Shown here piece after piece: positions 1 through 39,116 of a stretch of DNA of 40,583 nt; position 1 is the first letter of the stretch, and every line of letters starts with the position of its first letter. The DNA is from Magnetococcales bacterium HCHbin5 (GTDB taxonomy: Bacteria > Pseudomonadota > Magnetococcia > Magnetococcales > Magnetaquicoccaceae), in assembly GCA_002753505.1 (NCBI GenBank), contig PEAG01000028.1, positions 1 to 40,583 of the forward strand, read 5' to 3'. A model generated the notes under the pieces. The model was not told the origin of the DNA. It made no database searches and saw nothing but the letters and a program-made list of their open reading frames with translations. A program made the position numbers and the translations under genes.

Positions 1-118
1 CGCGTTGCGCAAATTTTCTGCGAAAATTTGCTTTGGGAAAACGCGCCGTTCATGCAGGGGCTTTGCCCCTGCACCCCACCGGGGACCGTGACGGTCCCCG
101 GACCCCTGCAATAGTTTA
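1..118 (-). repeat. Right arm of a composite hairpin repeat (copy E1, cut by window edge)
   Basis: This is the outer part of the inverted arm found in full at four other places in the window. Read left to right it holds a hairpin with arms CAAATTTTC/GAAAATTTG, then GCAGGGGC/GCCCCTGC, then GGGGACCGT/ACGGTCCCC, and ends in CCCCTGCAATAGTTTAAA. The last sequence is the terminal motif of the family. It ends about 10 bp from the aroA stop codon, so its hairpins could act as the aroA transcript terminator. The rest of the element, if complete, lies to the left of the window. Confidence 0.8.
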
Positions 119-128
119 AAAAAAACAA

Positions 129-3597: not shown

Positions 3598-3735
3598 ATT
3601 GCCGGGGCTTTGCCCCATATGCGCCAACAGGATTGCGGTTTTCCTTTACGATTGCAGGGGGCTGGGGACCGTGACGGTCCCCAGCGGGGTGCAGGGGCTT
3701 AAGCCCCGTATGCGCCAACAGGATTGCGGTCCTTC
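3598..3735. repeat. 90-bp tandem partial repeat modules flanking E2
   Basis: Two outer fragments of the composite repeat family stand in tandem with a 90-bp period: the GGGGCTTTGCCCC hairpin at 3604 recurs as GGGGCTTAAGCCCC at 3694. Each is followed by TATGCGCCAACAGGATTGCGG and by the hairpin GGGGACCGT.ACGGTCCCC (at about 3664 and again inside E2). Changes between the two hairpin copies keep the stem. The block sits between pheA and copy E2, in the divergent space between pheA and the deacetylase gene. Confidence 0.75.
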
Positions 3736-4193
3736 TTTAAACGATTGCAGGGGGCTGGGGACCGTCACGGTCCCCAGCGGGGTGCAGGGGCAGAGCCCCT
3801 GCTGAACTGCGCGTTTTCCCAAAGCCCATTTTCGCAGAAAATGGGCGCAACGCGCACAAAACCGCCCCGCAGGGGCGACCTTGGGAGGGCGGCAGCCCGA
3901 CTCGCACGACTATGTCGTGGAAAATATTTGGATAAAAAACCAGAACCTTCGGATATTCGGCTTCTCGTTTGATACAAGGCCAGGAACGTTTTTTTTTCAA
4001 ACCCTCCCAAACTTGGCCAGCTTTCGGTCGGGCTGCCGCCCTCCAGCAGTGCCCCTGCGGGGCGTTTTGGGCGCGCTGCGCCCATTTGCTGCGCAAATGG
4101 GCTTCCGGGAAAGCGCGCCCTTGCATGCAGGGGCTTTGCCCCTGCACCCCACCGGGGACCGTGACGGTCCCCGGACCCCTGCAATCGTTTAAA
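3736..4193 (+). repeat. Composite hairpin repeat element E2
   Basis: Complete 458-bp copy bounded by the inverted ends TTTAAACGATTGCAGGGG and CCCCTGCAATCGTTTAAA. The left arm (about 3736-3903) carries successive hairpins: GGGGACCGT/ACGGTCCCC, GCAGGGGC/GCCCCTGC, CCCATTTTC/GAAAATGGG, CGCCCCGCAGGGGCG and GGGCGGCAGCCC. The right arm (about 4022-4193) carries the same set inverted, but its third stem reads CCCATTTGC/GCAAATGGG. The core between the arms begins CGACTCGCACGACTATGT and includes GATACAAGGCCAGGAACG followed by a T-run. The space between pheA and the deacetylase (3501-4455) holds this element, its satellites and no gene I can support. Confidence 0.85.
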
Positions 4194-4229
4194 AAAGATT
4201 AGAAAAAGAATGGGATTGGTCAACATGTT

Positions 4230-5318: not shown

Positions 5319-5429
5319 ATTGCAGGGCGATGGGGACCGTCACGGTCCCCGGGATCATCGCGTCGTTCTTTTGAACAATTGCAGGGCTATGGAAACCGTC
5401 ACGGTCCCCGGGATCATCACGTCGTTCTT
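5319..5429. repeat. 59-bp tandem partial repeat modules before E3
   Basis: The sequence ATTGCAGGG, then the hairpin with ACCGTCACGGTCCCC, then GGGATCATC(A/G)CGTCGTTC, occurs at 5319 and 5378, and its start recurs at 5437 where copy E3 begins: a clean 59-bp period. In the middle unit the left stem has decayed (GGAAACCGT). The array starts 11 bp after the deacetylase stop codon and could terminate that transcript. Confidence 0.8.
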
Positions 5430-5899
5430 TTGAACAATTGCAGGGGTCTGGGGACCGTCACGGTCCCCAGCGGGGTGCAGGGGCGGAGCCCCTGCTGAAC
5501 TGCGCGTTTTCCCAAAGCAAATTTTCGCAGAAAATTTGCGCAACGCGCACAAAACCGCCCCGCAGGGGCGACCTTGGGAGGGCGGCAGCCCGACTCGCAC
5601 GGTTATGTTACGGAAAATGTTTGGATAAGAAAGCAAAACGTTCGGATATTGCGCTTTGATTGTATTACGCTTCTTGTTTGATACAAGGCCAGGATCGGTT
5701 TTTTTTCCAAACCAAATAACCTTTGGCCAGCTCTCGGTCGGGCTGCCGCCCTCCAGGAGTGCCCCTACGGGGCGTTTTGGGCGCGCTGCGCCCATTTGCT
5801 GCGCAAATGGGCTTCTGTGAAAGCGCGCCCGTTACATGCAAGGGCTCCGCCCCTGCACCCCGCCAGGGGGATGATCCCCCTGGACCCGCAATCATTCAA
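5430..5899 (+). repeat. Composite hairpin repeat element E3
   Basis: Complete copy of about 470 bp with the same order of hairpins as E2: left arm about 5430-5600, right arm about 5743-5899. The left third stem is CAAATTTTC/GAAAATTTG and the right is CCCATTTGC/GCAAATGGG, each self-complementary but different from each other. The right outer part has decayed (GATGATCCCC in place of the GGGGACCGT hairpin). The core (about 5603-5742) shares CGACTCGCACGGTTATGT and GATACAAGGCCAGGATCGG plus a T-run with E2, and closely matches the reverse complement of the E5 core. It fills the convergent space between the deacetylase and pheS, where pheT would be expected. Confidence 0.85.
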
Positions 5900-11705: not shown

Positions 11706-12300
11706 TTGTAACAATTGCAGGGGCCTGGGGACCGTCACGGTCCCCAGTGGGGTGCAGGGGCAAAGCCCCTGCATGTAACGGGCGCGCTTTCCCAAAAGCC
11801 CATTTGCGCAGCAAATGGGCGCAGCGCGCCCAAAACGCCCCGCAGGGGCACTCCTGGAGGGCGGCAGCCCGACCCAACGCCGACCAAACAGGGAAAGAGA
11901 TTGAAAAAAAAACAGCCCCCGCCCTGCCGGATAAATGGCTTAACTATACGAAAAGCATTTGGAAAAACACACCGTCGGACCAATGACCGAATATCCAACC
12001 GGGGCGGTTTTTTTTCCAAAGCCGCTCAACAACATAACCGTGCGGGGCGGTTTCTTTTCCAAAGCCGCTCAACAACATAACCGTGCGGGGCGGTTTCTTT
12101 TCCAAAGCCGCTCAACAACATAACCGTGCGAGTCGGGCTGCCGCCCTCCCAAAGTCGCCCCTGCGGGGCGGTTTTGGGCGCGTTGCGCCCATTTTCTGCG
12201 AAAATGGGCTTTGGGAAAACGCGCCCGTTACATGCAGGGGCTTTGCCCCTGCACCCCACTGGGGACCGTGACGGTCCCCAGACCCCTGCAATTGTTTAAC
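11706..12300 (-). repeat. Composite hairpin repeat element E4
   Basis: Complete copy of about 595 bp placed between folP and glmM. The left arm (about 11706-11873) has GGGGACCGT/ACGGTCCCC, GCAGGGGC/GCCCCTGC and CCCATTTGC/GCAAATGGG; the right arm (about 12128-12300) has the inverted set with third stem CCCATTTTC/GAAAATGGG and ends CCCCTGCAATTGTTTAAC. The core is longer than in other copies because of a 43-bp triplication and has diverged, though its right margin still matches the others in reverse (CCGTGCGAGTCGGG). The space 11662-12342 holds this element and no gene. Confidence 0.85.
12001..12129. repeat. Three tandem 43-bp units inside the E4 core
   Basis: Units 12001-12043, 12044-12086 and 12087-12129, each beginning GGGGCGGTTT and ending ACATAACCGTGC. 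The second and third are identical; the first differs by one base in the T-run (TTTTTTTT against TTTCTTTT). Each repeats the junction between the element core and the right arm, so it probably grew by slippage or unequal exchange. Confidence 0.95.
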
Positions 12301-12348
12301 GGTAGTTGGAGGCCGTGACGCTCCCCAGACCCCTGCAATTGTTTAACG
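12301..12348. repeat. Decayed extra terminal module of the repeat family at the folP 3' end
   Basis: The sequence from GACCCCTGCA at 12281 recurs at 12328 (47-bp period), with a decayed hairpin GGCCGTGACGCTCCCC between. The folP stop codon (TAA on the minus strand, 12343-12345) lies within the terminal GTTTAAC motif of this module, so repeat and gene meet with no gap. Confidence 0.7.
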
Positions 12349-22007: not shown

Positions 22008-22115
22008 TTTCAAACAATTGCATTGGCAAGGGGAGCGTGACGCTCCCCGGTGGGGTGCAGGGGCAAAGCCCCATATGCGCTCACATAATGACGATACCCT
22101 TTATTCTGTTAATCT
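22008..22115. repeat. Partial outer module next to E5
   Basis: A fragment with AACAATTGCA, the hairpin GGGGAGCGT/ACGCTCCCC and the shortened GGGGCAAAGCCCC followed by ATATGCGCTCAC. It corresponds to the 90-bp tandem module beside E2, in the same position relative to its complete element, but carries the AGCG/CGCT variant of the stem. Confidence 0.7.
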
Positions 22116-22590
22116 TTTAAAACGATTGCAGGGGCCTGGGGAGCGTCACGCTCCCCAGTGGGGTGCAGGGGCAAAGCCCCTGCAGGTAACGGGCGCGCTT
22201 TTACCGAAGCAAATTTCCGCAGGAAATTTGCGCAGCGCGCCCAAAACGCCCCGCAGGGGCACTGCTGGAGGGCGGCAGCCCGACCGAGAGCGGGCAAAAG
22301 GTTATTTGGTTTGGAAAAAAAACCGTTCCTGGCCTTGTGTCAAACAGGAAGCGTAATACAATCAAAGCGTAATATCCAAACGTTCTGGTTTTTTATCCAA
22401 ACATTTTCGATGACATAACCGTGCGGGTCGGGCTGCCGCCCTCCCAAGGTCGCCCCTGCGGGGCGGTTTTGGGCGCGTTGCGCAAATTTTCTGCGAAAAT
22501 TTGCTTTGGGAAAACGCGCCGTTCATGCAGGGGCTTTGCCCCTGCACCCCACCGGGGAGCGTGACGCTCCCCGGACCCCTGCAATCACTT
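22116..22590 (-). repeat. Composite hairpin repeat element E5
   Basis: Complete copy of about 475 bp with left arm about 22116-22283 and right arm about 22424-22590. All its outer hairpins read GGGGAGCGT/ACGCTCCCC in place of GGGGACCGT/ACGGTCCCC; the paired change keeps the stem. The third stems are CAAATTTCC/GGAAATTTG on the left and CAAATTTTC/GAAAATTTG on the right. The core is closely related to the reverse complement of the E3 core, including the T-run region and the GGCCAGGA motif. It ends 25 bp from the terminase stop codon. Confidence 0.85.
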
Positions 22591-22614
22591 TGACAAAATA
22601 CCAACCGGACGGCC

Positions 22615-24297
22615 TCAATACCCATCCATCTCAATCCGCCCCCCCCACTCCCCAAACCCCTTTTGCGCAAAAGAGTGCTCGACCGACGACCCCAACTCCT
22701 GCCCAACCCGACTGCCAGCGGAACGAACATCCCCCAAACTCCCCCCCTCATGCACCGCCCTCCACAACATCTCCAACGCATCCGGACCATCATCATGACT
22801 GTCATTGCCCTCCCCCCAATGACGCAACTGCTCAATCAGAGTACCCTGACCGGGATGAAACCGAATCAAACCATTGGCAATGTGCGGCTGCAAACTGCTG
22901 ATGCGCAACCCCTTGTCCCGGGAAGGCTTGATCCCGCGCGCCGGAACGGGAACACCCTGCCGGGCCGAACGCCGAATCAACTCATCCTTGAAAAATTCCT
23001 GAAACTGCACCGACTCCACTACCCATAACCGACACCCATACCGCAGCTGATAAGCCATCACATCCTCAATGATGCGATCCGGCAACCGGTGCCGAATGTC
23101 CGCCTCCAACAGATCCAATACCCCACTCTGCCGGTCAAACCCACCCACCAGAATGGCCGAAGGATCCCCCCGCCCCGCCGATTTCCCCATGGAAGGATCC
23201 ACCGCACCAAACATGACCCAGTTGGGATTGCGCTGCCCCCAAAAACTCAACTGCTGAAAAACCGCATTCTCACTCAACGGCTGATTCTGCAACTCGGCAT
23301 CAAAAGCCACCGTCCCATCCCGCGCCCGTATCTTCATCAGAGACTCCAGACTGCGAACCTTGGGCCAGGAGAGCTTGGCCCCCGCCTCCATCTGATTGCG
23401 ATGCTGCCGGAAAAAGGCATCCGCCGCCCCCTCCCCCTCGTTGACCAGACAAGCCTGCCACTGATCCCACAACGCCATATCCTGCGGCCACTGCAAAATG
23501 GCCTGAAAACGGATACTCTCCCACAACGGATTGTGCATCAAACGGGCCAGCAGCGAGTCATGATGCAAAATGGTACCCACCACCAACAGATCCATCGAAT
23601 CATCCGCCGCCCCCAACTTTAACACCGTGGTCCGCAACCACTCCTCCAGCTTGTCCCGCTGACTCCGACTGCGCACATTGACATCATTCTCCAGATCATC
23701 ACAAATCACCATATCCGGTCGGTGCGACCCATGCCGCAACCCCCGCATCCGCCGACCCGAACCAAACGCCTGAATCTTGGTGCCCCCCGCCGTCACCATC
23801 ACCCCCGACTTCCAAACCGACCCCACCCCGCACGCCGCCGGAAAATCCAACAACAAACGGCTGTTGCTCTCCAACTCCGCCTTGATCGCCTCCACCATGG
23901 CCGCCGCCTGATGCTGACTGTCCATGATGATGGGAATATATTTGCGCTGCCCGGTCACCGCACACCACAAGGTAAAAATCTGGGTCACCAGGGTCGACTT
24001 GGCCTCGCCACGCGGTGCCGCAATGGCCAGCTTGACCCCCCGCCGAGCCTGAATCAGCCGAGGCAAACGATCATACAAATAGCTGTGCAACACACTGTCA
24101 TGACGGGAGATATAATGGGGAAAATAGGTCTTGGCAAAAAACTGGAACTCTTTGCGGGCCCGCTGCTGGCGTCGCCGCTGCTCCTCCGGCCGGGTGCCCA
24201 ACCCGGCCAAATGCAACTCATGATGCTGCCGTAACCGTGCAGCCAACCCGGTCAATTCGGTCTGAAAAGCCTTGGGAGTCAACCTGGAATGGGTCAT
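22615..24297 (-). CDS. Phage terminase large subunit, orphan
   Basis: Motor and nuclease that packages DNA into phage heads. The 560 residues contain a Walker A-like APRGEAKST (about 114), Walker B MVICDDLEND (about 196), the coupling region VVGTILHHDSLL, and an RNase H-like nuclease domain starting at GAVDPSMGKSAGRGDPS (about 366), with VVESVQFQEFF and HDDGPDALEM supplying later acidic residues. A Shine-Dalgarno sequence (AGAGG) precedes the ATG. No small terminase, portal, capsid or tail gene is near; neighbours are a repeat element and a sensor kinase. It is full length, so it is either a recently isolated prophage remnant or a domesticated gene. Confidence 0.88.
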   Translation of the reverse strand: MTHSRLTPKAFQTELTGLAARLRQHHELHLAGLGTRPEEQRRRQQRARKEFQFFAKTYFPHYISRHDSVLHSYLYDRLPRLIQARRGVKLAIAAPRGEAKSTLVTQIFTLWCAVTGQRKYIPIIMDSQHQAAAMVEAIKAELESNSRLLLDFPAACGVGSVWKSGVMVTAGGTKIQAFGSGRRMRGLRHGSHRPDMVICDDLENDVNVRSRSQRDKLEEWLRTTVLKLGAADDSMDLLVVGTILHHDSLLARLMHNPLWESIRFQAILQWPQDMALWDQWQACLVNEGEGAADAFFRQHRNQMEAGAKLSWPKVRSLESLMKIRARDGTVAFDAELQNQPLSENAVFQQLSFWGQRNPNWVMFGAVDPSMGKSAGRGDPSAILVGGFDRQSGVLDLLEADIRHRLPDRIIEDVMAYQLRYGCRLWVVESVQFQEFFKDELIRRSARQGVPVPARGIKPSRDKGLRISSLQPHIANGLIRFHPGQGTLIEQLRHWGEGNDSHDDGPDALEMLWRAVHEGGSLGDVRSAGSRVGQELGSSVEHSFAQKGFGEWGGRIEMDGY

Positions 24298-29319: not shown

Positions 29320-29476
29320 TCTATCCGTTGATCGTGGGTAAACCTGCATGTAGCTACCCATCGCCTGACCTGCGGGTGCCCGATGAGTGTGAAGCATTGC
29401 GACTCAGAGAGAAATGGCTAAAATGGCTCCAACTGTGGTTCTGAAGCAGCAGGTGCATATTAAACGGATATTCTCA

Positions 29477-32400
29477 ATGACCGAACAGGAAATAGAACAA
29501 AAGTTGATTGAGAGGCTGGGCGATCTCAAATACACCTATCGCTCGGATATTCGTGATCGCACCTCACTTGAAGGTAATTTCCGTCAAAAATTCGAGATGC
29601 TCAACCGTGTCCGCCTGACCGATGCCGAGTTTGCCCGGCTGCGCGATGAGATCGTCAACGCCGATGTCTTCCAGGCCGCCAAGGCACTGCGCGAGTACGG
29701 CTATATCGAGCGCGAAGACGGCACTCCGCTGCACTACATGTTGGTCAACCTCAAGGACTGGTGCAAAAACGAGTTCGAGGTCATCCATCAGCTGCGCATC
29801 AACACCGACAACAGCCACCATCGCTATGACGTAATCCTGCTCATCAATGGTCTGCCGCTGGTGCAGATTGAGCTGAAGAGCGTCGGTATCAACCCGCGTC
29901 GAGCCATGGAGCAAATTATCGAGTACCGCAACGCCCCCGGAAACGGCTACGCCAACACGCTGCTCTGCTTCATGCAGCTCTTCATCGTCAGCAACCGCAA
30001 TAACACCTGGTATTTCACCAATAACCACAACCAACACTTTGCCTTCAACGCCGATGAGCGTTTCCTGCCTGTCTACCAATGGGCCGAGGAAGACAACCGC
30101 AAGGTCACCCACCTGGACGACTTCGCCGAGAGGTTTCTGGCCAAGTGTGCGCTGGGCCAGATGATCAGCCGTTACATGGTGCTCGTCGCCAGCGAGCAAA
30201 AGCTGTTGATCATGCGCCCGTACCAAATCTATGCGGTCAAGGCCATTGTCGACTGCATCCACCAGCACCGTGGCAACGGCTTCATCTGGCATACCACCGG
30301 CAGCGGCAAGACTCTCACCTCCTTCAAGGCGTCAACCCTGCTCAAGGACAACCCGGACATTGAAAAATGTCTGTTCGTGGTGGATCGCAAAGACCTCGAC
30401 CGCCAGACCCGCATCGAATTCAATAAGTTTCAAGAAGGCTGCGTCGAAGAGAACACCAGCACCGAAACCCTCGTGCGCCGCCTGCTCTCGGAGGATTATG
30501 CCGACAAGGTGATCGTCACCACCATCCAGAAACTCGGCTTGGCCCTGGATGAAAACAGTAAAAGTGCCCAGCAGCACAAGGAGAGGGGCAAACTCACCTA
30601 CAAGGAGCGGCTCGCCCCGTTACGCGGGCAGCGCGTCGTCATCATCTTCGACGAATGCCACCGCTCCCAGTTTGGCGAGAATCACAAAGCCATCAAAGAG
30701 TTTTTCCCCAATGCGCAACTGTTCGGCTTTACCGGCACGCCCATCTTCGAGGAGAACGCCAGCTACACCCAGGTCGACGGCACTCTTGGCTCCTACCGGA
30801 CCACCCAAGACATCTTTGAAAAGCGGCTTCATGCCTACACCATCACCCACGCCATTGATGACAGCAACGTGCTGCGTTTTCACATCGATTATTTCAAACC
30901 AGAGGGCAAAGCCGAAGGCGACAAGCCAGCCAGCGACAAGGCAAAGAAGGGCAGCACCAGGCCCCCTCGGCCCGTGGCCCAGCGCGCTGTGGTCGATGCC
31001 ATCCTGGCCAAGCATGACGCTGCCACCGATCATCGCCGCTTCAATGCCCTTCTGGCCACCGCCTCCATCAACGATGCCATTGACTTTTACGAGCTGTTCA
31101 AGCAGGTCCAGGCCGAGCATCGGGGCCAAGATTCCAACTTCATCCCGCTCAACATCGCCTGCATCTTCTCGCCCCCGGCGGAGGGCAACAGGGACGTCAA
31201 GCAGCTCCAGGAAGATCTGCCCCAGGAACGGGCGGACAACCAGCAGGAGCCGGAGCGGAAGAAGGCCGCGTTGCAACAGATCATCGCCGACTATAACGCC
31301 CAATATGGCACCAACCACAAGCTCGGGGAGTTTGACGGCTACTATCAGGACGTGCAGCAGCGCATCAAGGATCAGAAGCATCCCAACAGCGACTTTCCGC
31401 GTAAGAACAAGATCGACCTCACCATCGTTGTCGATATGCTGCTTACCGGTTTCGACTCCCAGTACCTCAACACTCTGTACGTGGACAAGGATCTCAAGCA
31501 CCATGGTCTGATTCAGGCCTTTTCGCGCACCAACCGCGTGCTCAACGACACCAAACCCTACGGCAACATTCTCGACTTTCGCGCCCAGGAAAAGAGCGTG
31601 GACGAGGCCATTGCCCTTTTCTCTGGCGAGGATGCCGATCGCTCCCGCGAAATTTGGCTGGTGGACCCGGCCCCCAAGGTCATCGACCAGTTCGATGCCG
31701 CCGTCCGGCAACTGGAAGCGTTCATGGAAGCCCAGGGCCAGCCCTGTACACCCGATGCGGTCAACAACCTCAAGGGCGATACCGCCCGCGCCGAGTTCAT
31801 CAACCGCTTCAAGGAGGTTCAGCGGCTCAAGACCCAGCTTGACCAGTACACCGACCTGAGCAACGCACAAAAAGAACAGATCGAGCAGCGACTACCGGAA
31901 GAGCAACTGCGCGGCTTCAAGGGCATCTACCTGGAGACCGCCCAACGTCTCAAGGCACAGCAGGGCAAGAGAGGTGACGAGGCCAGCGACGACCGGGAGG
32001 TCATCGAGCAACTGAGCTTTGAATTTGTCCTCTTCTCCTCGGCCATGATCGACTACGATTACATCATGGGCCTGGTCGCCCGTTTCACTCAGGAAAAGCC
32101 CGGCAGGCAGACCATGAGCCGCGAACAGCTCATCAACCTCCTCGCCGCCAACAGCAACCTGATGGACGAGCGCAGGGATATCATCGCCTACATCAACACT
32201 CTGGAGGCCGGCAAGGGCCTCAGCGAAGAGAGCATCCGCGACGGCTATCAGAGCTTCAAGGCACAAAAGGCCGAGGGTGAACTCAGCGATCTCGCCAAGC
32301 GGCACCGGCTGGAACGCGACGCCCTGCAAGCCTTCGTCGCTGGCATCCTGGACCGCATGATCTTCGACGGTGAACGGTTGAGCGACCTGTTTGAACCGCT

Positions 32401-32518
32401 GGATCTGGGCTGGAAGGCCCGCAGCGGGGCCGAGGTGGCACTGATGGAAGAGTTGGTGCCCTTTCTGAAAAAGCAGGTCGGCGGGCGCGATATATCGGGG
32501 TTGGCGGCATATGAGTAA
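29477..32518 (+). CDS. hsdR: Type I restriction enzyme R subunit (ATP-dependent translocase and nuclease)
   Basis: Motor and endonuclease subunit of a type I restriction-modification complex. The N-terminal nuclease domain carries YDVILLINGLPLVQIELKSV (about residues 116-135), which fits the D...E-x-K site. The helicase core has Walker A HTTGSGKTLT (about 273), the DECH box (about 392), GFTGTPIF, and the motif VI region with GLIQAFSRTNRVLND (about 678). The C-terminal helical part ends near residue 1013, a normal length. I chose the Met of MTEQEIEQKL; the in-frame ATG at 29414 would add 21 residues with no support. The last 8 nt overlap hsdS. It is the first gene of the island operon. Confidence 0.95.
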   Translation: MTEQEIEQKLIERLGDLKYTYRSDIRDRTSLEGNFRQKFEMLNRVRLTDAEFARLRDEIVNADVFQAAKALREYGYIEREDGTPLHYMLVNLKDWCKNEFEVIHQLRINTDNSHHRYDVILLINGLPLVQIELKSVGINPRRAMEQIIEYRNAPGNGYANTLLCFMQLFIVSNRNNTWYFTNNHNQHFAFNADERFLPVYQWAEEDNRKVTHLDDFAERFLAKCALGQMISRYMVLVASEQKLLIMRPYQIYAVKAIVDCIHQHRGNGFIWHTTGSGKTLTSFKASTLLKDNPDIEKCLFVVDRKDLDRQTRIEFNKFQEGCVEENTSTETLVRRLLSEDYADKVIVTTIQKLGLALDENSKSAQQHKERGKLTYKERLAPLRGQRVVIIFDECHRSQFGENHKAIKEFFPNAQLFGFTGTPIFEENASYTQVDGTLGSYRTTQDIFEKRLHAYTITHAIDDSNVLRFHIDYFKPEGKAEGDKPASDKAKKGSTRPPRPVAQRAVVDAILAKHDAATDHRRFNALLATASINDAIDFYELFKQVQAEHRGQDSNFIPLNIACIFSPPAEGNRDVKQLQEDLPQERADNQQEPERKKAALQQIIADYNAQYGTNHKLGEFDGYYQDVQQRIKDQKHPNSDFPRKNKIDLTIVVDMLLTGFDSQYLNTLYVDKDLKHHGLIQAFSRTNRVLNDTKPYGNILDFRAQEKSVDEAIALFSGEDADRSREIWLVDPAPKVIDQFDAAVRQLEAFMEAQGQPCTPDAVNNLKGDTARAEFINRFKEVQRLKTQLDQYTDLSNAQKEQIEQRLPEEQLRGFKGIYLETAQRLKAQQGKRGDEASDDREVIEQLSFEFVLFSSAMIDYDYIMGLVARFTQEKPGRQTMSREQLINLLAANSNLMDERRDIIAYINTLEAGKGLSEESIRDGYQSFKAQKAEGELSDLAKRHRLERDALQAFVAGILDRMIFDGERLSDLFEPLDLGWKARSGAEVALMEELVPFLKKQVGGRDISGLAAYE

Positions 32519-33728
32519 GACGATGAAAGAGGAACAGAAGGCATTGGAACCTCGGTTGCGGTTTCCTGAGTTTCGGGATGCGGGGGGGTGGGAAGCTCAG
32601 AGAATTGGTAAATACCTTACGGAGAGCCGGATAAAGGGTAGCAAGGGTGATGTAGCAAAAAAACTGACCGTTAAACTATGGGGAAATGGTGTTTATGAAA
32701 AGAATGAAGCCGTACAGGGAAGTGCTAACACTCAATACTATCGCCGCAAGGCTGGACAGTTTATCTATAGCAAGTTAGATTTTCTCAATCAGGCATTTGG
32801 GATAATTCCAGAACACTTAGACAATTGCGAGTCGACGGTTGATTTGCCGTGCTTTGATGCGAGCACACAGCTTGATGTGCGGTTCCTGCTTGAGTATGTA
32901 CAACGTAAGGAATTTTATAAGAGGCATGGTGAGGTTGCGGACGGCGGAAGGAAGGCAAAGCGAATCCAAGTAGGAACGTTTTTAGGCTTCCCGATATTCC
33001 TGCCAATACCAGAAGAACAACAAAAAATCGCCGATTGCCTCTCCTCCCTCGACGCCCTGATTGCCGCCCACATCAAAAAGCTTGAAGCCCTCACGACCCA
33101 CAAAAAAGGGCTGATGCAGCAACTCTTCCCCCGCGAGGGCGAAACCGTTCCCCGCCTGCGCTTTCCCGAGTTTCGGGATGCGGGGGAGTGGGTGGTGAAA
33201 CCGCTAAAAAATCTCGTTGAGAATTTAGACTCTAAAAGGGTTCCGATAACAGAAGCGGATCGCGCAAAAGGGACTATCCCTTATTATGGTGCTTCTGGGG
33301 TTATCGACTTTGTTGATAGCTATATTTTTGATGAAGACCTGCTCTGTATTTCAGAGGATGGCGCAAATTTAGTTGCGAGAACATCTCCTATCGCTTTTTC
33401 TATAACTGGCAAGACATGGGTAAATAACCATGCGCACGTTCTGAAATTTAGACACAAATTCACACAGACGATAGTCGAGAACTACTTGAACGCCATAAAT
33501 CTTGAGGATTTTCTTACAGGTATGGCCCAGCCTAAACTGAACCGGGCGAAGCTGGATACAATTCCTATCTTCCTTCCTGGCGAAGGTGAACAACAAAAAG
33601 TCGCCGATTGCCTCTCCTCCCTCGACACGCTGATCACCGCCCACACCAAAAAACTCGAAACTCTCAAGACCCACAAAAAAGGTCTGATGCAGCAACTCTT
33701 CCCCAACCCGGAGGCGGTGGGCGCATGA
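32511..33728 (+). CDS. hsdS: Type I restriction-modification specificity subunit
   Basis: Sets the target sequence for both methylation and restriction. The 405 residues hold two target-recognition domains. Each is introduced by the same phrase PRLRFPEFRDAG (about residues 14 and 215) and closed by a near-identical helix: ADCLSSLDALIAAHIKKLEA...THKKGLMQQLFP (about 174-206) and ADCLSSLDTLITAHTKKLET...THKKGLMQQLFP (about 365-398). The recognition parts are AT-richer than neighbouring genes, as is usual for exchanged domains. The ATG lies inside the hsdR end (8-nt overlap) and the stop overlaps rhuM by 4 nt. The target sequence cannot be predicted. Confidence 0.94.
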   Translation: MSKTMKEEQKALEPRLRFPEFRDAGGWEAQRIGKYLTESRIKGSKGDVAKKLTVKLWGNGVYEKNEAVQGSANTQYYRRKAGQFIYSKLDFLNQAFGIIPEHLDNCESTVDLPCFDASTQLDVRFLLEYVQRKEFYKRHGEVADGGRKAKRIQVGTFLGFPIFLPIPEEQQKIADCLSSLDALIAAHIKKLEALTTHKKGLMQQLFPREGETVPRLRFPEFRDAGEWVVKPLKNLVENLDSKRVPITEADRAKGTIPYYGASGVIDFVDSYIFDEDLLCISEDGANLVARTSPIAFSITGKTWVNNHAHVLKFRHKFTQTIVENYLNAINLEDFLTGMAQPKLNRAKLDTIPIFLPGEGEQQKVADCLSSLDTLITAHTKKLETLKTHKKGLMQQLFPNPEAVGA

Positions 33729-34732
33729 GCGACCTGATCCTCTACGCCACGGAAGACGGCCAGAGCCGGATACAACTGCGGGCCGACGGCCAAACCGTTT
33801 GGCTGACTCAATTGGAAATGGCCGAGCTTTTTCAGACCACCAAGCAGAATATCGCCAAGCACCTGAAGGCCATTTTTACCGAGGAAGAATTGAGCGCGAA
33901 ATCAGTTGTCAACCAATGGTTGACAACTGCCGCCGACGGCAAGAACTATCGGATCGCGCACTACAACCTGGACGCCATTCTGGCGGTGGGCTACCGGGTG
34001 CGTTCACCGCGTGGCGCGCAGTTCCGCCGCTGGGCCTCCACCGTGCTCGGCGAATACCTGCGCAAGGGCTTTGTGATGGACGACGAGCGGCTGAAGAACC
34101 CCGATGGCCGCCCCGATTATTTCGACGAGATGCTGGCGCGCATCCGCGATATTCGTGCTTCGGAAAAGCGTTTTTATCAGAAGGTGCGCGATCTGTTCGC
34201 CCTCTCCAGCGACTACGACAAGAGTGACCACGCCACCCAGCAGTTTTTCGCCACCGTGCAGAATTTATTGCTCTATGCCGTCACCGGGCAGACCGCCGCC
34301 GAACTGGTCAGCGCGCGAGCCAATCCCGCCGATCCCCATTTTGGCCTGCTTAATTGGAAGGGGGCGATGGTGCGCAAGCAGGATATCCTCATCGCCAAGA
34401 ACTACCTGACCGAAGACGAGATCGACACCCTCAATCGGTTGGTGGTCATCTTCCTGGAAACCGCCGAGTTGCGCGCCAAACGCCAGACCCTGACCTCCAT
34501 GGAGTTCTGGCGGGATAATGTGGGGCAGATCATCACCACCAACGGCTTTCCCCTGTTGGCGAACGCCGGTTCCATCAGCCATGCCCACATGGAACAGCAG
34601 GTCGGCAGGCAGTTTCAGGATTACGACCAGCACCGCAAAACCCAGGAGGCGCAAGCGGCGGATGCCCAGGACGAGGCCGAACTGAAAGCGTTGGAAAGCA
34701 GGATCAAGAATCGCAAAGGAACAGCGTCATGA
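33725..34732 (+). CDS. rhuM: RhuM family protein
   Basis: A 335-residue protein of the RhuM family, named after a gene of Salmonella pathogenicity island 3, with no established biochemical role. The N-terminus has a helix-turn-helix-like segment (VWLTQLEMAELFQTTKQNIAKHLKAIF), followed by SVVNQWLTTAADGKNY, YNLDAILAVGYRVRSPRGAQFRRWA and LGEYLRKGFVMDDERLKN, all typical of the family. The C-terminal part is helical and ends in a charged tail. I placed the start at the ATG overlapping the hsdS stop (ATGA); the stop in turn overlaps the next gene by 4 nt. Members are often found inside type I restriction loci, so a regulatory or defence role is possible but not shown. Confidence 0.88.
   Translation: MSDLILYATEDGQSRIQLRADGQTVWLTQLEMAELFQTTKQNIAKHLKAIFTEEELSAKSVVNQWLTTAADGKNYRIAHYNLDAILAVGYRVRSPRGAQFRRWASTVLGEYLRKGFVMDDERLKNPDGRPDYFDEMLARIRDIRASEKRFYQKVRDLFALSSDYDKSDHATQQFFATVQNLLLYAVTGQTAAELVSARANPADPHFGLLNWKGAMVRKQDILIAKNYLTEDEIDTLNRLVVIFLETAELRAKRQTLTSMEFWRDNVGQIITTNGFPLLANAGSISHAHMEQQVGRQFQDYDQHRKTQEAQAADAQDEAELKALESRIKNRKGTAS
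33903..33929. repeat. 27-bp perfect inverted repeat inside rhuM
   Basis: CAGTTGTCAACC and GGTTGACAACTG are perfect 12-bp inverted arms around AAT. The site lies in the rhuM coding region, encoding part of SVVNQWLTTA. It could be a protein-binding site or an mRNA hairpin, or simply chance aided by the protein sequence. Confidence 0.6.
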
Positions 34733-35856
34733 ATGCCCCCCAAACCTTTACCAGCCTGGACGAACTGGCCCGGCATCTGCGCGATGTGCTGACGAAAAAG
34801 TATGTCCTGCTCTTTGCCTTCAATGGCACAGGCAAAACGCGCCTCTCCATGCTCTTCAAGGAATTGGGCAAGAGAACTGTCGAAGATGATGAGGGCAATG
34901 AAGAGACAACCCGCGACACCCTCTATTTCAACGCCTTCACCGAAGACCTGTTCCACTGGGACAATGACCTGGAGGGCGATTCCCGGCGCGTGCTGCGCAT
35001 GAATACGGATTCGCGCTTCTTCGATGGTCTGCAAGAGCTGGAGATGGAGAACCGCATCCGACCGCTATTACGTCGCTATGCTGACATCGATTTTTTTATC
35101 GATTACGAGCAAGGTGCGGTGAACTTTGTCCGAGAAGTCCAGTCCGGAGAAAATACCGAGACCATCGAGCATATCAAGGTGTCCCGTGGTGAGGAGAATA
35201 TCTTCGTCTGGTGCTTCTTTCTCGCCGTCGCCCAGTTGGCGGTGGATGGGCAGGAGGCCTACCGCTGGGTCAAATACCTCTATATCGACGATCCCATCTC
35301 CTCGCTGGATGACAACAACGCCATCGCTGTGGCCAGCCATCTGGCGCAACTGCTGAAGAGTGCCAACGGACAGATCAGAATAGTGATCTCGACCCACCAT
35401 CATCTATTCTTCAATGTCATGTGCAACGAGCTGAGCAACGCCGCTCGATACTTCCTGAGCAAGGAGGCGGATCAATTCCTGCTGACAGACACCGGCGATA
35501 CCCCGCGCTTCCACCACATAGCACTGCTCAAACAGCTGCATGAAGTGGCGGAATCGGGCCAGATTTACACCTACCATTTTAATATCCTGCGCAATCTTCT
35601 GGAAAAGACAGCCACCTTTCACGGCTTCCGAAGGTTCTCCGACTGCATCAACAGGGACATCGACGACCCGGACGGCATTTTGCACACCCGCTTGGTGAAC
35701 GTGCTCAGCCACGGGAATTATTCCCTCTTTGAGCCCCAGGAGATGCTGCCGGAGAACAAGGAATACTTCCGCAAGATCCTGCGGGACTTTATGAACAATT
35801 ACCGGTTCAATCCGGAACTCTTCCCGGAACCGCGACAAGAGAGTGTGAGCGCATGA
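34729..35856 (+). CDS. PrrC-like anticodon nuclease (ABC ATPase plus nuclease domain)
   Basis: A 375-residue protein with the motif set of an ABC-type ATPase: Walker A FNGTGKT (31-37), signature VSRGEEN (151-157), Walker B YLYIDDPISSLD (183-194) and H-loop STH (221-223). The C-terminal part has Arg288-x3-Glu292 and His328, matching in order and approximate spacing the Arg-x3-Glu...His catalytic triad of the tRNA-cleaving nucleases PrrC and RloC. Length is close to PrrC (about 396). PrrC is also encoded within a type I restriction locus, held silent by the complex and released when a phage blocks restriction. The gene overlaps rhuM and hsdM by 4 nt each. Function is inferred; no substrate tRNA can be named. 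Confidence 0.78.
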   Translation: MNAPQTFTSLDELARHLRDVLTKKYVLLFAFNGTGKTRLSMLFKELGKRTVEDDEGNEETTRDTLYFNAFTEDLFHWDNDLEGDSRRVLRMNTDSRFFDGLQELEMENRIRPLLRRYADIDFFIDYEQGAVNFVREVQSGENTETIEHIKVSRGEENIFVWCFFLAVAQLAVDGQEAYRWVKYLYIDDPISSLDDNNAIAVASHLAQLLKSANGQIRIVISTHHHLFFNVMCNELSNAARYFLSKEADQFLLTDTGDTPRFHHIALLKQLHEVAESGQIYTYHFNILRNLLEKTATFHGFRRFSDCINRDIDDPDGILHTRLVNVLSHGNYSLFEPQEMLPENKEYFRKILRDFMNNYRFNPELFPEPRQESVSA

Positions 35857-37481
35857 CCAAAGACCAACTCAACCAACTGGGCAAGACCCTTTGGGCCATC
35901 GCCGACGACCTGCGCGGCGCGATGAACGCCGACGACTTCCGCGACTACATGCTCTCGTTCCTGTTCCTGCGCTATCTCTCCGACAATTACGAGGCAGCCG
36001 CGAAAAAGGAATTAGGTCCAGACTATCCGGACCTTCCACAAGACGTATTGCGGAAGACCGACGCAACGACCCAGCTTCATGTCTGGTATGAAGAAAACGC
36101 CAATGACGTGGAGCAATTCGAAAAGCAGATGCGCCGCAAAATACACTATTGCATCCACCCCGACTATCTCTGGAGCAGCATCTACGAGCGTGCCCGTACT
36201 CAGGACGGTGAGTTGCTGCAAACCCTGCAACGGGGATTCAAGTATATCGAAAATGAATCCTTTGCCAGCACCTTCCAGGGTCTCTTTTCCGAGATCAACC
36301 TCAACTCGGAAAAGTTGGGCAGAACCCCCACCGACCGCAACAAGAAACTCTGCACCATCATCACCAAGATTGCCGAAGGGATCGCCCAGTTTTCCACCGA
36401 CAGCGACATCCTCGGCGATGCCTACGAGTATCTGATCGGCCAGTTTGCCGCCGGCTCTGGCAAGAAGGCCGGGGAGTTCTACACCCCGCAAACAATCTCC
36501 ACCATCCTCTCGCGCATCGTCACACTGGACAGCCAGGAGCCCGCCACCGGCAAAAAAAAGAAGCTCAGCTGCGTGCTCGACTTCGCCTGCGGTTCCGGCT
36601 CGCTGCTGCTTAATGTGCGCAGCCAGATGGGGACACACGGCATCGGCATGATTTACGGCCAGGAAAAAAACATCACCACCTACAACCTGGCCCGCATGAA
36701 CATGCTATTGCATGGCGTTAAGGACAGCGAGTTCCAGATCCATCACGGCGACTCCCTAACCAACGACTGGGACATGCTCAGCGAGATGAACCCGGCAAAG
36801 AAACTCAAATGCGATGCCGTAGTCGCCAATCCGCCGTTCAGCTACCGCTGGGACCCCACCGAAGAGTTGGGCAAAGACTTCCGTTTTAAAAGCCACGGCT
36901 TGGCACCCAAATCCGCCGCTGATTTCGCCTTCCTGCTGCACGGCCTTCATTTCCTCAGTGATGAGGGCGTCATGGCGATCATTCTGCCCCACGGCGTGCT
37001 GTTCCGCGGTGGCGTCGAGAGCCACATCCGCACCAAGCTCCTCAAAGACGGCCATATCGATACCGTGATCGGCCTACCCGCCAATCTTTTTTTCTCCACA
37101 GGGATACCGGTCTGCATCCTGGTGCTGAAAAAGTGCAAAAAACCGGATGACGTGCTTTTCATCAATGCCAGTGAACATTTCGAGAAGGGCAAGCGGCAAA
37201 ATCAGCTCCTGCCGGAGCACATCGACAAGATTGTCGAAACCTACCAATTCAGGAAGGAAGAAGAGCGGTATGCTCGACGGGTGGGCATGGCGGAAATCGA
37301 GAATAACGACTTCAACCTGAATATCTCTCGCTACGTCAGCACGGCCAAGTCGGAGGAAGAGATCGATCTTGCCATGGTGAATAAGGAGCTTGTGGCATTG
37401 GAAAAGGACATTGTAGCTGCCACGGAAAGGCACAACGGTTTCCTTGAGGAGCTTGGCTTACCTCCTTTGCCTCTGGGTTGA
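35853..37481 (+). CDS. hsdM: Type I restriction-modification DNA methyltransferase M subunit
   Basis: N6-adenine methyltransferase that protects host DNA as M2S1 with HsdS. The N-terminal helical domain (KTLWAIADDLRGAMNADDFRDYMLSFLFLRYLSD) is followed by FYTPQTISTILSRIV, the SAM motif VLDFACGSGSLLLN (about 240) and the catalytic NPPFSY (about 326). Length (542 aa) is typical. The ATG overlaps the preceding stop as ATGA, and it is the last gene of the operon. The order R-S-rhuM-nuclease-M places the methyltransferase last, which is uncommon. It ends 52 bp before the right tRNA-derived repeat. Confidence 0.96.
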   Translation: MTKDQLNQLGKTLWAIADDLRGAMNADDFRDYMLSFLFLRYLSDNYEAAAKKELGPDYPDLPQDVLRKTDATTQLHVWYEENANDVEQFEKQMRRKIHYCIHPDYLWSSIYERARTQDGELLQTLQRGFKYIENESFASTFQGLFSEINLNSEKLGRTPTDRNKKLCTIITKIAEGIAQFSTDSDILGDAYEYLIGQFAAGSGKKAGEFYTPQTISTILSRIVTLDSQEPATGKKKKLSCVLDFACGSGSLLLNVRSQMGTHGIGMIYGQEKNITTYNLARMNMLLHGVKDSEFQIHHGDSLTNDWDMLSEMNPAKKLKCDAVVANPPFSYRWDPTEELGKDFRFKSHGLAPKSAADFAFLLHGLHFLSDEGVMAIILPHGVLFRGGVESHIRTKLLKDGHIDTVIGLPANLFFSTGIPVCILVLKKCKKPDDVLFINASEHFEKGKRQNQLLPEHIDKIVETYQFRKEEERYARRVGMAEIENNDFNLNISRYVSTAKSEEEIDLAMVNKELVALEKDIVAATERHNGFLEELGLPPLPLG

Positions 37482-37533
37482 TAACTTTACCATGTATATT
37501 ACGGAATTTTTCATATTGAAAATAAATAGTTAA

Positions 37534-37575
37534 ATGGTGTCCCCGGCGCGATTTGAACGCACGGCCTACGGATTA
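37534..37575 (-). repeat. att-like direct repeat: 3' half of tRNA-Arg(CCU) (right border of island)
   Basis: Reverse complement of a tRNA 3' half with CCA, acceptor strand, T arm and anticodon-loop sequence TTCCTAA, giving anticodon CCU. The 5' anticodon strand expected beyond the loop (ACGGA) is absent; the sequence reads TCAGA. It is thus an att fragment and not a gene. Together with 29278-29319 it frames the defence island, and it lies immediately before the integrase promoter. tRNA-Arg(CCU) is a known integration target (argW in E. coli). Confidence 0.85.
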
Positions 37576-37649
37576 GGAATCTGAGGTTCTGCGTTTTATG
37601 GCCTTTCCGCACGATCTATAAAGATTCATAAATCCAATATATTGCTTGC

Positions 37650-37678
37650 TTGACGTTTCCGGAAATTTCCGCTATTTT
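37650..37678 (+). promoter_or_regulatory. Predicted integrase promoter with embedded palindrome
   Basis: TTGACG (37650-37655) and TATTTT (37673-37678) are separated by 17 bp, a good sigma-70 fit. The spacer contains the palindrome CCGGAAATTTCCG, a possible operator placed where a bound protein would block polymerase. It lies about 75 bp downstream of the att-like repeat and about 70 bp before the integrase start. Confidence 0.6.
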
Positions 37679-37687
37679 CTCTCCAAG

Positions 37688-37726
37688 TGGGTACTATGTG
37701 GGTACTGGAATCGGTTCCAGTACCCA
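37688..37726. promoter_or_regulatory. Palindrome and repeated TGGGTACT sites in the integrase leader
   Basis: Perfect 12-bp arms TGGGTACTGGAA and TTCCAGTACCCA around TCGG (37699-37726), preceded by a further direct copy of TGGGTACT at 37688. It lies between the predicted promoter and the ribosome binding site, so it could be an operator, an mRNA hairpin limiting translation, or an integrase arm-binding site. Confidence 0.55.
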
Positions 37727-37750
37727 GAACAACAGGGGGAGGCGCGAACC

Positions 37751-38980
37751 ATGGCAATCAAGCTGGCCAAACGAACCGTAGACGCGGCACAACCGGGGGA
37801 ACAGGACGTTTTCCTGTTCGATTCCGATTTGACCGGGTTCGGTCTCAAAGTCACCCCGACCGGGCGCAAGGTCTATCTGGTCCAGTACCGTATCAACGGG
37901 GCCAAGCGGCGGGTGACAATCGGGGTACATGGTTCCCCCTGGACGCCAGAACAGGCACGGCAGGAGGCTGCCAGACTGTTGGGGTTGGTAGCCAATGGCA
38001 AAGACCCGGCTGAGGCCAAAGCAATGGCCAAGACAATCCCCACCGTTGCCGAGGTGGTCGAGCGATTCTTTACCGAGCACGTCAACGCCAAGAACAAGCC
38101 AAGCACGTTTGCTGAATACCGGCGGCAAGCAGATAAGATTATTATTCCCCAATTGGGAAAATATCGGATTGATGCCATCCAGAGGAGTCACATTGCCAAG
38201 CTGCATCATGGTATGCAAAAGACTCCCTACACGGCTAACCGGGTGGTGGCGTTGCTTTCCAAGATGTTCAACTGGTGTGAGATGGTTGGTTTACGTCCAG
38301 ACCGGACCAACCCGGTTCTGCACATCCAGAAGTACCGGGAAGAGAAACGAGAACGGTTGCTGAGTGACTCGGAACTGGCACGCTTGGGGCAGGCGTTGGC
38401 CGATGCTGAACGGAGTGGCAAGGCATCCCCCTACGCCGTGACGGCCATTCGGTTGATTATTCTGACTGGGGCAAGACTAGGGGAAATTCTCTCTCTGCGA
38501 TGGGATGAGGTAGACTTTCAACATGGAGCGTTGCGGCTGTCCGACTCCAAGACAGCAACAACGACCGGAACAGCAAGCGGGGCAAAGGCCATCCCGTTGA
38601 ATCCTCCGGCATTGGAGCTGCTCTCTTCCCTTCCGCGTATTGAAGGCAACCCCCACGTGATCGTGGGCAAGATCGAAGGTCACGCTATGGTGAACATCAA
38701 CAAACCCTGGCGGGCCATCCGGGCCAATGCGGGATTGGAGACCTTGCGTATTCACGACCTGAGGCACGCCTTTGCATCGGTGGGGGCCAGCATGGGCATG
38801 AGTTTGCCTGTTATTGGCAAGTTATTGGGACACACCCAGGCGGCCACAACGCAACGATATGCACATCTGTCAGATGATCCACTCCAGAAGGCAACCGCGT
38901 TGATTGGAGAGCATATAGCGGCGGCCATGAAGGGCAGTGAAGTCGATAACATCATCCCCCTCCGATCCAACCAGGGATAA
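37751..38980 (+). CDS. int: Tyrosine-type site-specific integrase
   Basis: Catalyses integration and excision at the tRNA-Arg att site. The N-terminal part (to about residue 95) with FLFDSDLTGFGLKVTPTGRKVYLVQYR is the DUF4102-like arm-binding domain of P4-type integrases, then a core-binding domain and the catalytic domain. Catalytic residues are visible: Arg in TGARLGEIL, His-x-x-Arg in HDLRHAFAS, the LLGHTQAATTQRY motif with the nucleophilic Tyr, and AHL after it. The Met of MAIKLAKRTV is preceded by GGGGGAGG; the longer frame from 37646 would start inside the promoter. It reads away from the att fragment 37534-37575. Confidence 0.95.
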   Translation: MAIKLAKRTVDAAQPGEQDVFLFDSDLTGFGLKVTPTGRKVYLVQYRINGAKRRVTIGVHGSPWTPEQARQEAARLLGLVANGKDPAEAKAMAKTIPTVAEVVERFFTEHVNAKNKPSTFAEYRRQADKIIIPQLGKYRIDAIQRSHIAKLHHGMQKTPYTANRVVALLSKMFNWCEMVGLRPDRTNPVLHIQKYREEKRERLLSDSELARLGQALADAERSGKASPYAVTAIRLIILTGARLGEILSLRWDEVDFQHGALRLSDSKTATTTGTASGAKAIPLNPPALELLSSLPRIEGNPHVIVGKIEGHAMVNINKPWRAIRANAGLETLRIHDLRHAFASVGASMGMSLPVIGKLLGHTQAATTQRYAHLSDDPLQKATALIGEHIAAAMKGSEVDNIIPLRSNQG

Positions 38981-39019
38981 TCAGACCGGCGCACCCTTCC
39001 GAGTGATGCGCCAAACGAA

Positions 39020-39076
39020 TGCCCGGCCTATCGCGACGGCGAGAAAAAAGGAAACCTTTTACCTTCTGGCCGGGCA
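39020..39076. other. Nested hairpin downstream of the integrase
   Basis: Outer arms TGCCCGGCC (39020-39028) and GGCCGGGCA (39068-39076) enclose an inner hairpin AAAAGG-AAA-CCTTTT. It lies between the integrase stop and the next gene, so it could terminate the integrase transcript or form the leader of the next gene. There is no T-run after the outer stem. Confidence 0.55.
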
Positions 39077-39116
39077 CTTACCTTAAAGGTTGTTGCATAA
39101 AAAGGATGCAATTTCA

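Follow-up and report, generated by a model that had tools for sequence, protein, structure and literature searches.

One inverted-repeat element, E5, in the 40,583-nucleotide stretch analysed here (the window, a contig of Magnetococcales bacterium HCHbin5) raises the question of why all of its outer hairpins carry the same sequence variant. An earlier note had seen one variant in the three outer stems of E5 and another in every intact copy at the elements E1-E4, and had taken this as a change concerted within a locus, brought about by gene conversion between the arms or by duplication from a separate subfamily. Three perfect GGGGAGCGT-N-ACGCTCCCC stems (the G variant, named after pair 8 of the nine stem pairs) are indeed present at E5, starting at 22030, 22138 and 22554 (the last placed at about 22556 before), but their flanks differ further out, as is seen when the satellite (AAGGGGAGCGTGACGCTCCCCGG, with the outermost pairs broken) and the right arm (CCGGGGAGCGTGACGCTCCCCGG) are both written with flanks on the + strand. 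Read from outer to inner, the centre base of the satellite stem is G, a rare type found in 4 of 218 oriented copies. Conversely, all eight perfect copies of the outer palindrome (P1) at E1-E4 (starts 81, 3664, 3757, 4154, 5332, 5450, 11727 and 12261) read GGGGACCGT, but the right arm of E3 ends in a hairpin that is intact and yet unlike P1 (CCAGGGGGATGATCCCCCTGG, 5863-5883), so that the contrast holds for P1 and not for every intact outer hairpin. In the degenerate E4 satellite at 12308, just one side carries the G-type ACGCTCCCC. Overall, the window contains 24 half-sites versus 1.04 expected from shuffles.

Table 1. Elements of the family in the window and parts of E5 (window coordinates).
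Feature	Position	Strand	Remarks
E1, one arm only	1..122		cut by contig end
E2, complete, one tandem satellite on left (3664)	3648..4214, boundaries approximate		
E3, two 59-bp satellites on left; right outer hairpin of other sequence	5319..5896		
E4, complete, degenerate satellite at 12308	11710..12341		G variant on one side only
E5 left satellite outer hairpin (H1/P1)	22028..22050	+	G variant, flipped centre base, outermost pairs broken
E5 type A arm	22121..22300, boundaries approximate	+	hairpin chain H1, H2, H3, H4, H5
E5 left-arm outer hairpin CTGGGGAGCGTCACGCTCCCCAG	22136..22158	+	pair 8 = G-C, pair 2 = T-A
E5 type B arm	22414..22594, boundaries approximate	-	hairpin order as in A, inverse orientation
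E5 right-arm outer hairpin	22552..22574	-	pair 8 = G-C, pair 2 = C-G

The P1 palindrome is present in 826 copies in the genome (4.19 Mb in 200 contigs, one of which is the window) and a reversed control pattern in none. We analysed in detail 80 stretches, picked non-randomly, partly by known hits and partly by contig number, which together with the window amount to 982,910 bases; these 983 kb hold 262 P1-like sites (at most two mismatches) and 55 complete elements with inverted arms. From outer hairpin through outer hairpin the complete elements measure 381-653 bp, with 32 of the 55 sampled at 416-421 bp and E5 at 435 bp. Their two arms, A and B, are unlike: 51 of the 55 elements are AB, and the other four have one arm that is unclassified. 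Each arm, whether A or B, is a chain of five hairpins, and in the A arm of E5 H2 reads TGCAGGGGCAAAGCCCCTGCA and H3 reads GGGCGCGC..GCGCGCCC around GCAAATTTCCGCAGGAAATTTGC. When folded as single-stranded DNA, the E5 stretches 22120-22260 and 22450-22590, which cover most of the A and the B arm, gave z values of -7.0 and -7.4, respectively. Satellites are copies of the end module (the outer hairpin, often with part of H2) and are often tandemly repeated. P1 is flanked on its inner side mostly by GGTGGGGT or AGTGGGGT, the ends of the element are ATTGCAGGGG, and beyond the stem the outward-reading end has GGACCCCTGCAAT, which gives way to AT-rich sequence with no sharp edge. Within window positions 22120-22190 the left half of H2 recurs as the element end TGCAGGGG; the right half of H2 thus has two possible partners, and the fold may have two states. 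The element is non-coding and holds no gene, as judged from its length; an Rfam cmscan of the window at gathering scores placed no family over it (the sole match being int-alpA at 39021-39089), and a search of openly licensed papers returned no description of such repeats for Magnetococcales. E5 is best read as a member of a family of non-coding inverted repeats that lie between genes, of the palindromic REP/BIME/MITE-like kind.

In this family change is concerted at the level of the single hairpin, where the two partners of a stem pair vary jointly. Among 65 B arms, most of the strongest links join stem partners: pairs 2-22, 8-16, 75-93 and 76-92 and a paired insertion at columns 138 and 152 (both inserted in 14 arms, neither in 51) are matched in all but one cell (T.G), and the closing pair of H3 (57-105) is matched in 58 of 65 arms and unmatched in seven. 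No link at p 0.01 was detected between the variable pairs of H1 and those of H3 in B arms, nor is pair 2 linked to the unpaired base two positions off. Similarly, across 66 distinct B arms 99.2% of cells are paired and 117 are changed on both sides versus 43.5 in shuffles, for a structure written by hand from the same alignment on which it was counted and with related copies entering repeatedly; the covariation score was 0.097 versus at most 0.024 with slid partners. (The linkage counts omit three truncated arms of the 68 B arms, and the covariation count, with 66 distinct of 68, keeps them.) The inner stem of H3, which occurs in the variants AA, CC, AC and CA, is matched in all 131 scorable A and B arms, 10 of 141 arms lying outside the search expression. 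The variable stem pairs are few, each with two main states. Two columns of the B-arm alignment that are unpaired in our model, 24 and 39, are also fully linked (T-A in 45 and C-G in 20 of 65 arms), which would point to shared descent within a subfamily or to a contact that the model misses; columns 156-159 vary as a single block together with the H4 insertion, and this block looks like the A arm. At two congener loci (L177 and L183), the order of hairpins is kept and, by eye, their sequences are other but still complementary. The outer hairpins at the E3 site, AGGGGCGATGATCGCCCCT in the congener (L177, about 1370-1500) and AGGGGGATGATCCCCCT in E3 (window 5863-5883), share their core and differ by a matched change on both sides of the stem. 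Hundreds of parallel copies, with stem pairs that are near-unlinked to one another yet locked to their partners, offer a direct test of how compensatory changes originate, that is, by selection on a folding strand or by copying of one side onto the other.

The perfection of the outer stem depends on its context. All nine pairs are intact in 146 of 149 P1 copies in arms, in 59 of 69 satellites that include the start of H2 and in 20 of 44 isolated copies, and pair 8 is one-sided in 13 of the 44 isolated copies versus 6 of the 218 others. This dependence is easier to reconcile with selection, or with loss of elements that do not fold, than with an automatic correction, unless the isolated copies are simply of greater age; they may be, and their one-sided stems would then need no selection to account for them. 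The intermediates at pair 2 are asymmetric as well: read from outer to inner, T.G occurs 20 times and C.A five times genome-wide (p 0.004, in a tally in which duplication-related copies may count more than once); in four of the 20 T.G cases pair 8 is one-sided too. The excess of T.G over C.A suggests that one strand, read from outer to inner, folds as RNA or as single-stranded DNA. As between these two, the orientation of the wobble sites is in the direction that a 3'-UTR RNA predicts, with 15 of the 19 placed T.G sites (one of 20 unplaced) in arms facing gene 3' ends versus a baseline of 132/214, a difference that is not significant (p 0.14); for C.A the count is three of five. We propose that copies whose arms cannot fold would be lost or not propagated and that isolated hairpins outside an element would decay, selection thus probably being the force that keeps the stems paired.

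The most serious alternative is a hairpin-templated correction, in which template switching during replication copies one side of the stem from the other, so that mutation and not selection would maintain pairing. One-sided intermediates at transversion pairs are in fact nearly absent from arms (0/65 for pair 8 and 0/65 for the H3 pairs), a paired insertion exists, and inversions occur occasionally, at 4 of 218 P1 centres (including that of the E5 satellite) and in three H3 loops of A arms, paired changes and loop inversions being named as footprints of template switching in passages of PMC8794818. However, a mutational process should correct isolated hairpins too, and these are often one-sided (13/44 versus 6/218); moreover, only few pairs vary, with two main states each, centre inversions are rare, and more T.G than C.A is expected of selection on one folding strand but not of template copying alone. 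On balance we regard it as unlikely that the stems are perfect mainly by templated copying in element arms, allowing for paired insertions and loop flips. If it were so, the genome would be a natural record of the speed of correction, written in hundreds of parallel copies with near-unlinked positions.

The clustering of variants by locus, which the earlier note had called for determining, proved to run through tandem neighbours and not through the arms. Neighbouring hairpins less than 130 bp apart (96 pairs, of which 80 could be used for pair 8 and 78 for pair 2) are concordant at pair 8 in 70 of 80 cases, versus a shuffle mean of 45.0 and with 0 of 5000 shuffles as high, and at pair 2 in 69 of 78 cases versus 42.3 expected. 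By contrast, the opposite arms of one element do not match beyond chance: with unscorable hairpins dropped, 33 of 53 elements are concordant at pair 8 (mean 29.8, p 0.22) and 33 of 52 at pair 2 (28.3 expected, p 0.11), out of 55 in each case and both slightly above expectation. The same was found genome-wide for arm pairs defined by a start-to-start spacing of 379-409 bases (a range outside which E5 itself lies), where 63 CC, 8 GG and 32 mixed pairs compare with 60.6, 5.6 and 36.8 predicted by independence (chi-square 1.76, p 0.18). Within the power of the sample, the arms therefore carry their variants independently. At the level of whole loci the outcome is borderline with respect to mixed variants in most loci, the finding that had been named as refuting a concerted change: among 50 loci with at least three hairpins, 24 are uniform, 16 are mixed and 10 hold a one-sided hairpin. 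In the 40 fully scorable loci, 24 are uniform versus 10.2 expected and six are uniformly G versus 1.4 expected. This excess can be explained by the tandem repetition of the end module, as a result of which adjacent hairpins on the same side of an element share variants.

We also considered a subfamily origin of the G variant and rejected it, as arms that are nearly identical in body carry either variant, a comparison of which only the trend was used because some of the zero-distance pairs are probably truncated arms with few compared bases. What linkage there is between the variant and the rest of the arm is weak (V 0.17, p 0.04 with arm type; V 0.27, p 0.02 with H3 type; p 0.046 for nearest-neighbour concordance among A arms), and the proposed duplication from a separate subfamily is accordingly without support.

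Arms could also appear independent if the assembly had joined the arms of different copies. Such chimeric arms are possible because the assembly is fragmented and its contigs frequently begin within the element: element sequence is found at 21 of 71 contig starts, versus one of the 71 stretches at positions 1001-1150 of the same contigs. But variants that lie 2-50 nt apart inside one arm are also nearly unlinked, and chimeric arms are an unlikely cause of this weak linkage within single arms; tandem concordance, too, is preserved. An artefact of this kind is, in our judgement, distinctly improbable as the source of arm independence.

The elements are located near the 3' ends of genes and seldom at divergent promoters. 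Using genes called by a purpose-made codon model, we placed 70 of 109 hairpin blocks (leaving out those less than 200 bases from the end of a stretch and those not flanked on both sides by called genes) and found 44 between tandem, 24 between convergent and two between divergent genes, compared to 460, 78 and 78 among all adjacent gene pairs (p 3e-5 for convergent versus divergent). The median distance from blocks to flanking stop codons is 24.5 bp, and for two of the 70 the overlap with a called gene exceeds 150 bases.

The version of the element with the P1 outer hairpin is far more numerous here than in congeners, six of which have 28, 10, 0, 0, 0 and 0 strict P1 copies. Some congeners free of strict P1 carry the family with other outer hairpins (G006 at the E3 site and G004 near pheA); no element was seen at the E3 site in the fetched loci of G002, G003 and G004, and at the E4 site of a relative (L013) the element is absent. 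Because a related element occupies the E3 site in congener G006, some copies may be old. In G030, from another family of the order, six of eight copies are of the G type, and the two variants are therefore old or recurrent. The element may, we propose, have been propagated by some enzyme as a palindromic, REP/BIME/MITE-like mobile element that is not autonomous. Window positions 22105-22600 had no match at E 1e-5 in plasmid and phage collections, and among 14 clean elements, whose edge in the AT-rich flank is not sharp, flanking direct repeats were not in clear excess as target-site duplications.

As to its surroundings, E5 is adjoined by a homologue of the phage terminase large subunit (22615-24297), and the window ceases to resemble the GAPDH regions of four relatives (L013, L014, L016 and L026) at about 21850, near E5. 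The best 16 named loci for the GAPDH-like protein of the window are from Magnetococcales, with 68-86% identity (60-86% for the 80 kept). Further on, a type I restriction-modification locus (HsdR, HsdS, an AAA_13 protein and HsdM) is followed by a phage-type integrase (37646-38980) and then by the int-alpA RNA (39021-39089), and the region 29414-39089 looks like a genomic island.

High-copy inverted pairs of palindromes with compensatory changes in their hairpins are described for REPINs too, in passages of PMC3116915, and the elements might accordingly be REPINs moved by a RAYT (REP-associated tyrosine transposase). A PF01797 search of the genome and 40 relatives, including inspection of the contig of the single gene found, gave no link, and RAYT mobilisation was rejected: the contig of this sole Y1_Tnp gene is without P1 or any palindrome of at least 8 bp, and the search found no RAYT gene flanked by P1, in a fragmented assembly in which a gene may be missed. 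Among relatives, Y1_Tnp matches (frames of 225-234 aa, E about 1e-13 to 1e-15) are present in congeners or family members with 0 strict P1 (G001 and G006-G009) and absent in the P1 carriers G005 (10 P1), G023 (1) and G024 (3). By eye, a GTAG-type tag was not seen beside the stem, nor was a conserved unpaired GTAG or CGTC in its outer or inner flanks. We give the REPIN reading little credence.

Returning to E5, gene conversion between its two arms would account for the pair 8 that all three stems have in common, but we consider it very improbable, as the arms differ at pair 2 of that same stem, six stem pairs further out, and arm pairs fit independence both genome-wide and in the sampled elements. 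The uniform G variant of E5 is most likely a duplicated left side and a right arm that matches by coincidence. G in both arms occurs in five of 53 scored elements, and E5 is therefore not unusual. With moderate confidence, we favour an explanation of E5 as a whole that combines tandemly repeated end modules, independent arms, stem-wise covariation, selected foldability and a palindromic, mobile-like element.

These observations add a family of hairpin-chain elements to Magnetococcales, with hairpins that differ between species. The element has the high-copy intergenic palindromes, often in inverted pairs, that are a feature of REPINs and REPs. Passages of PMC3116915 depict REPINs as two inverted palindromic ends in high copy number with compensatory hairpin changes, and in these respects the element is like them; unlike REPINs, it has five hairpins per arm, is hundreds of base pairs long, has A and B arms that differ, and showed no RAYT association. 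Similarly, the element shares with REPs and BIMEs, as portrayed in parts of PMC8266576 and PMC3733652, a mosaic of palindromes with tandem copies between genes. It departs from them in that, by eye, no GTAG or terminal CGTC tag is seen outside the stem and in that H1 forms a perfect palindrome around a single central base. Bacterial MITEs are non-coding, have long inverted repeats and a high copy number, produce a target-site duplication and share their ends with an autonomous parent transposon. The element may differ from MITEs in that target-site duplications did not emerge clearly among the 14 clean elements and no transposase could be tied to it in a search with PF01797 only, and it resembles them in its terminal inverted repeats without coding capacity, in the length of these repeats, in its many copies and in the element-free site of a relative.
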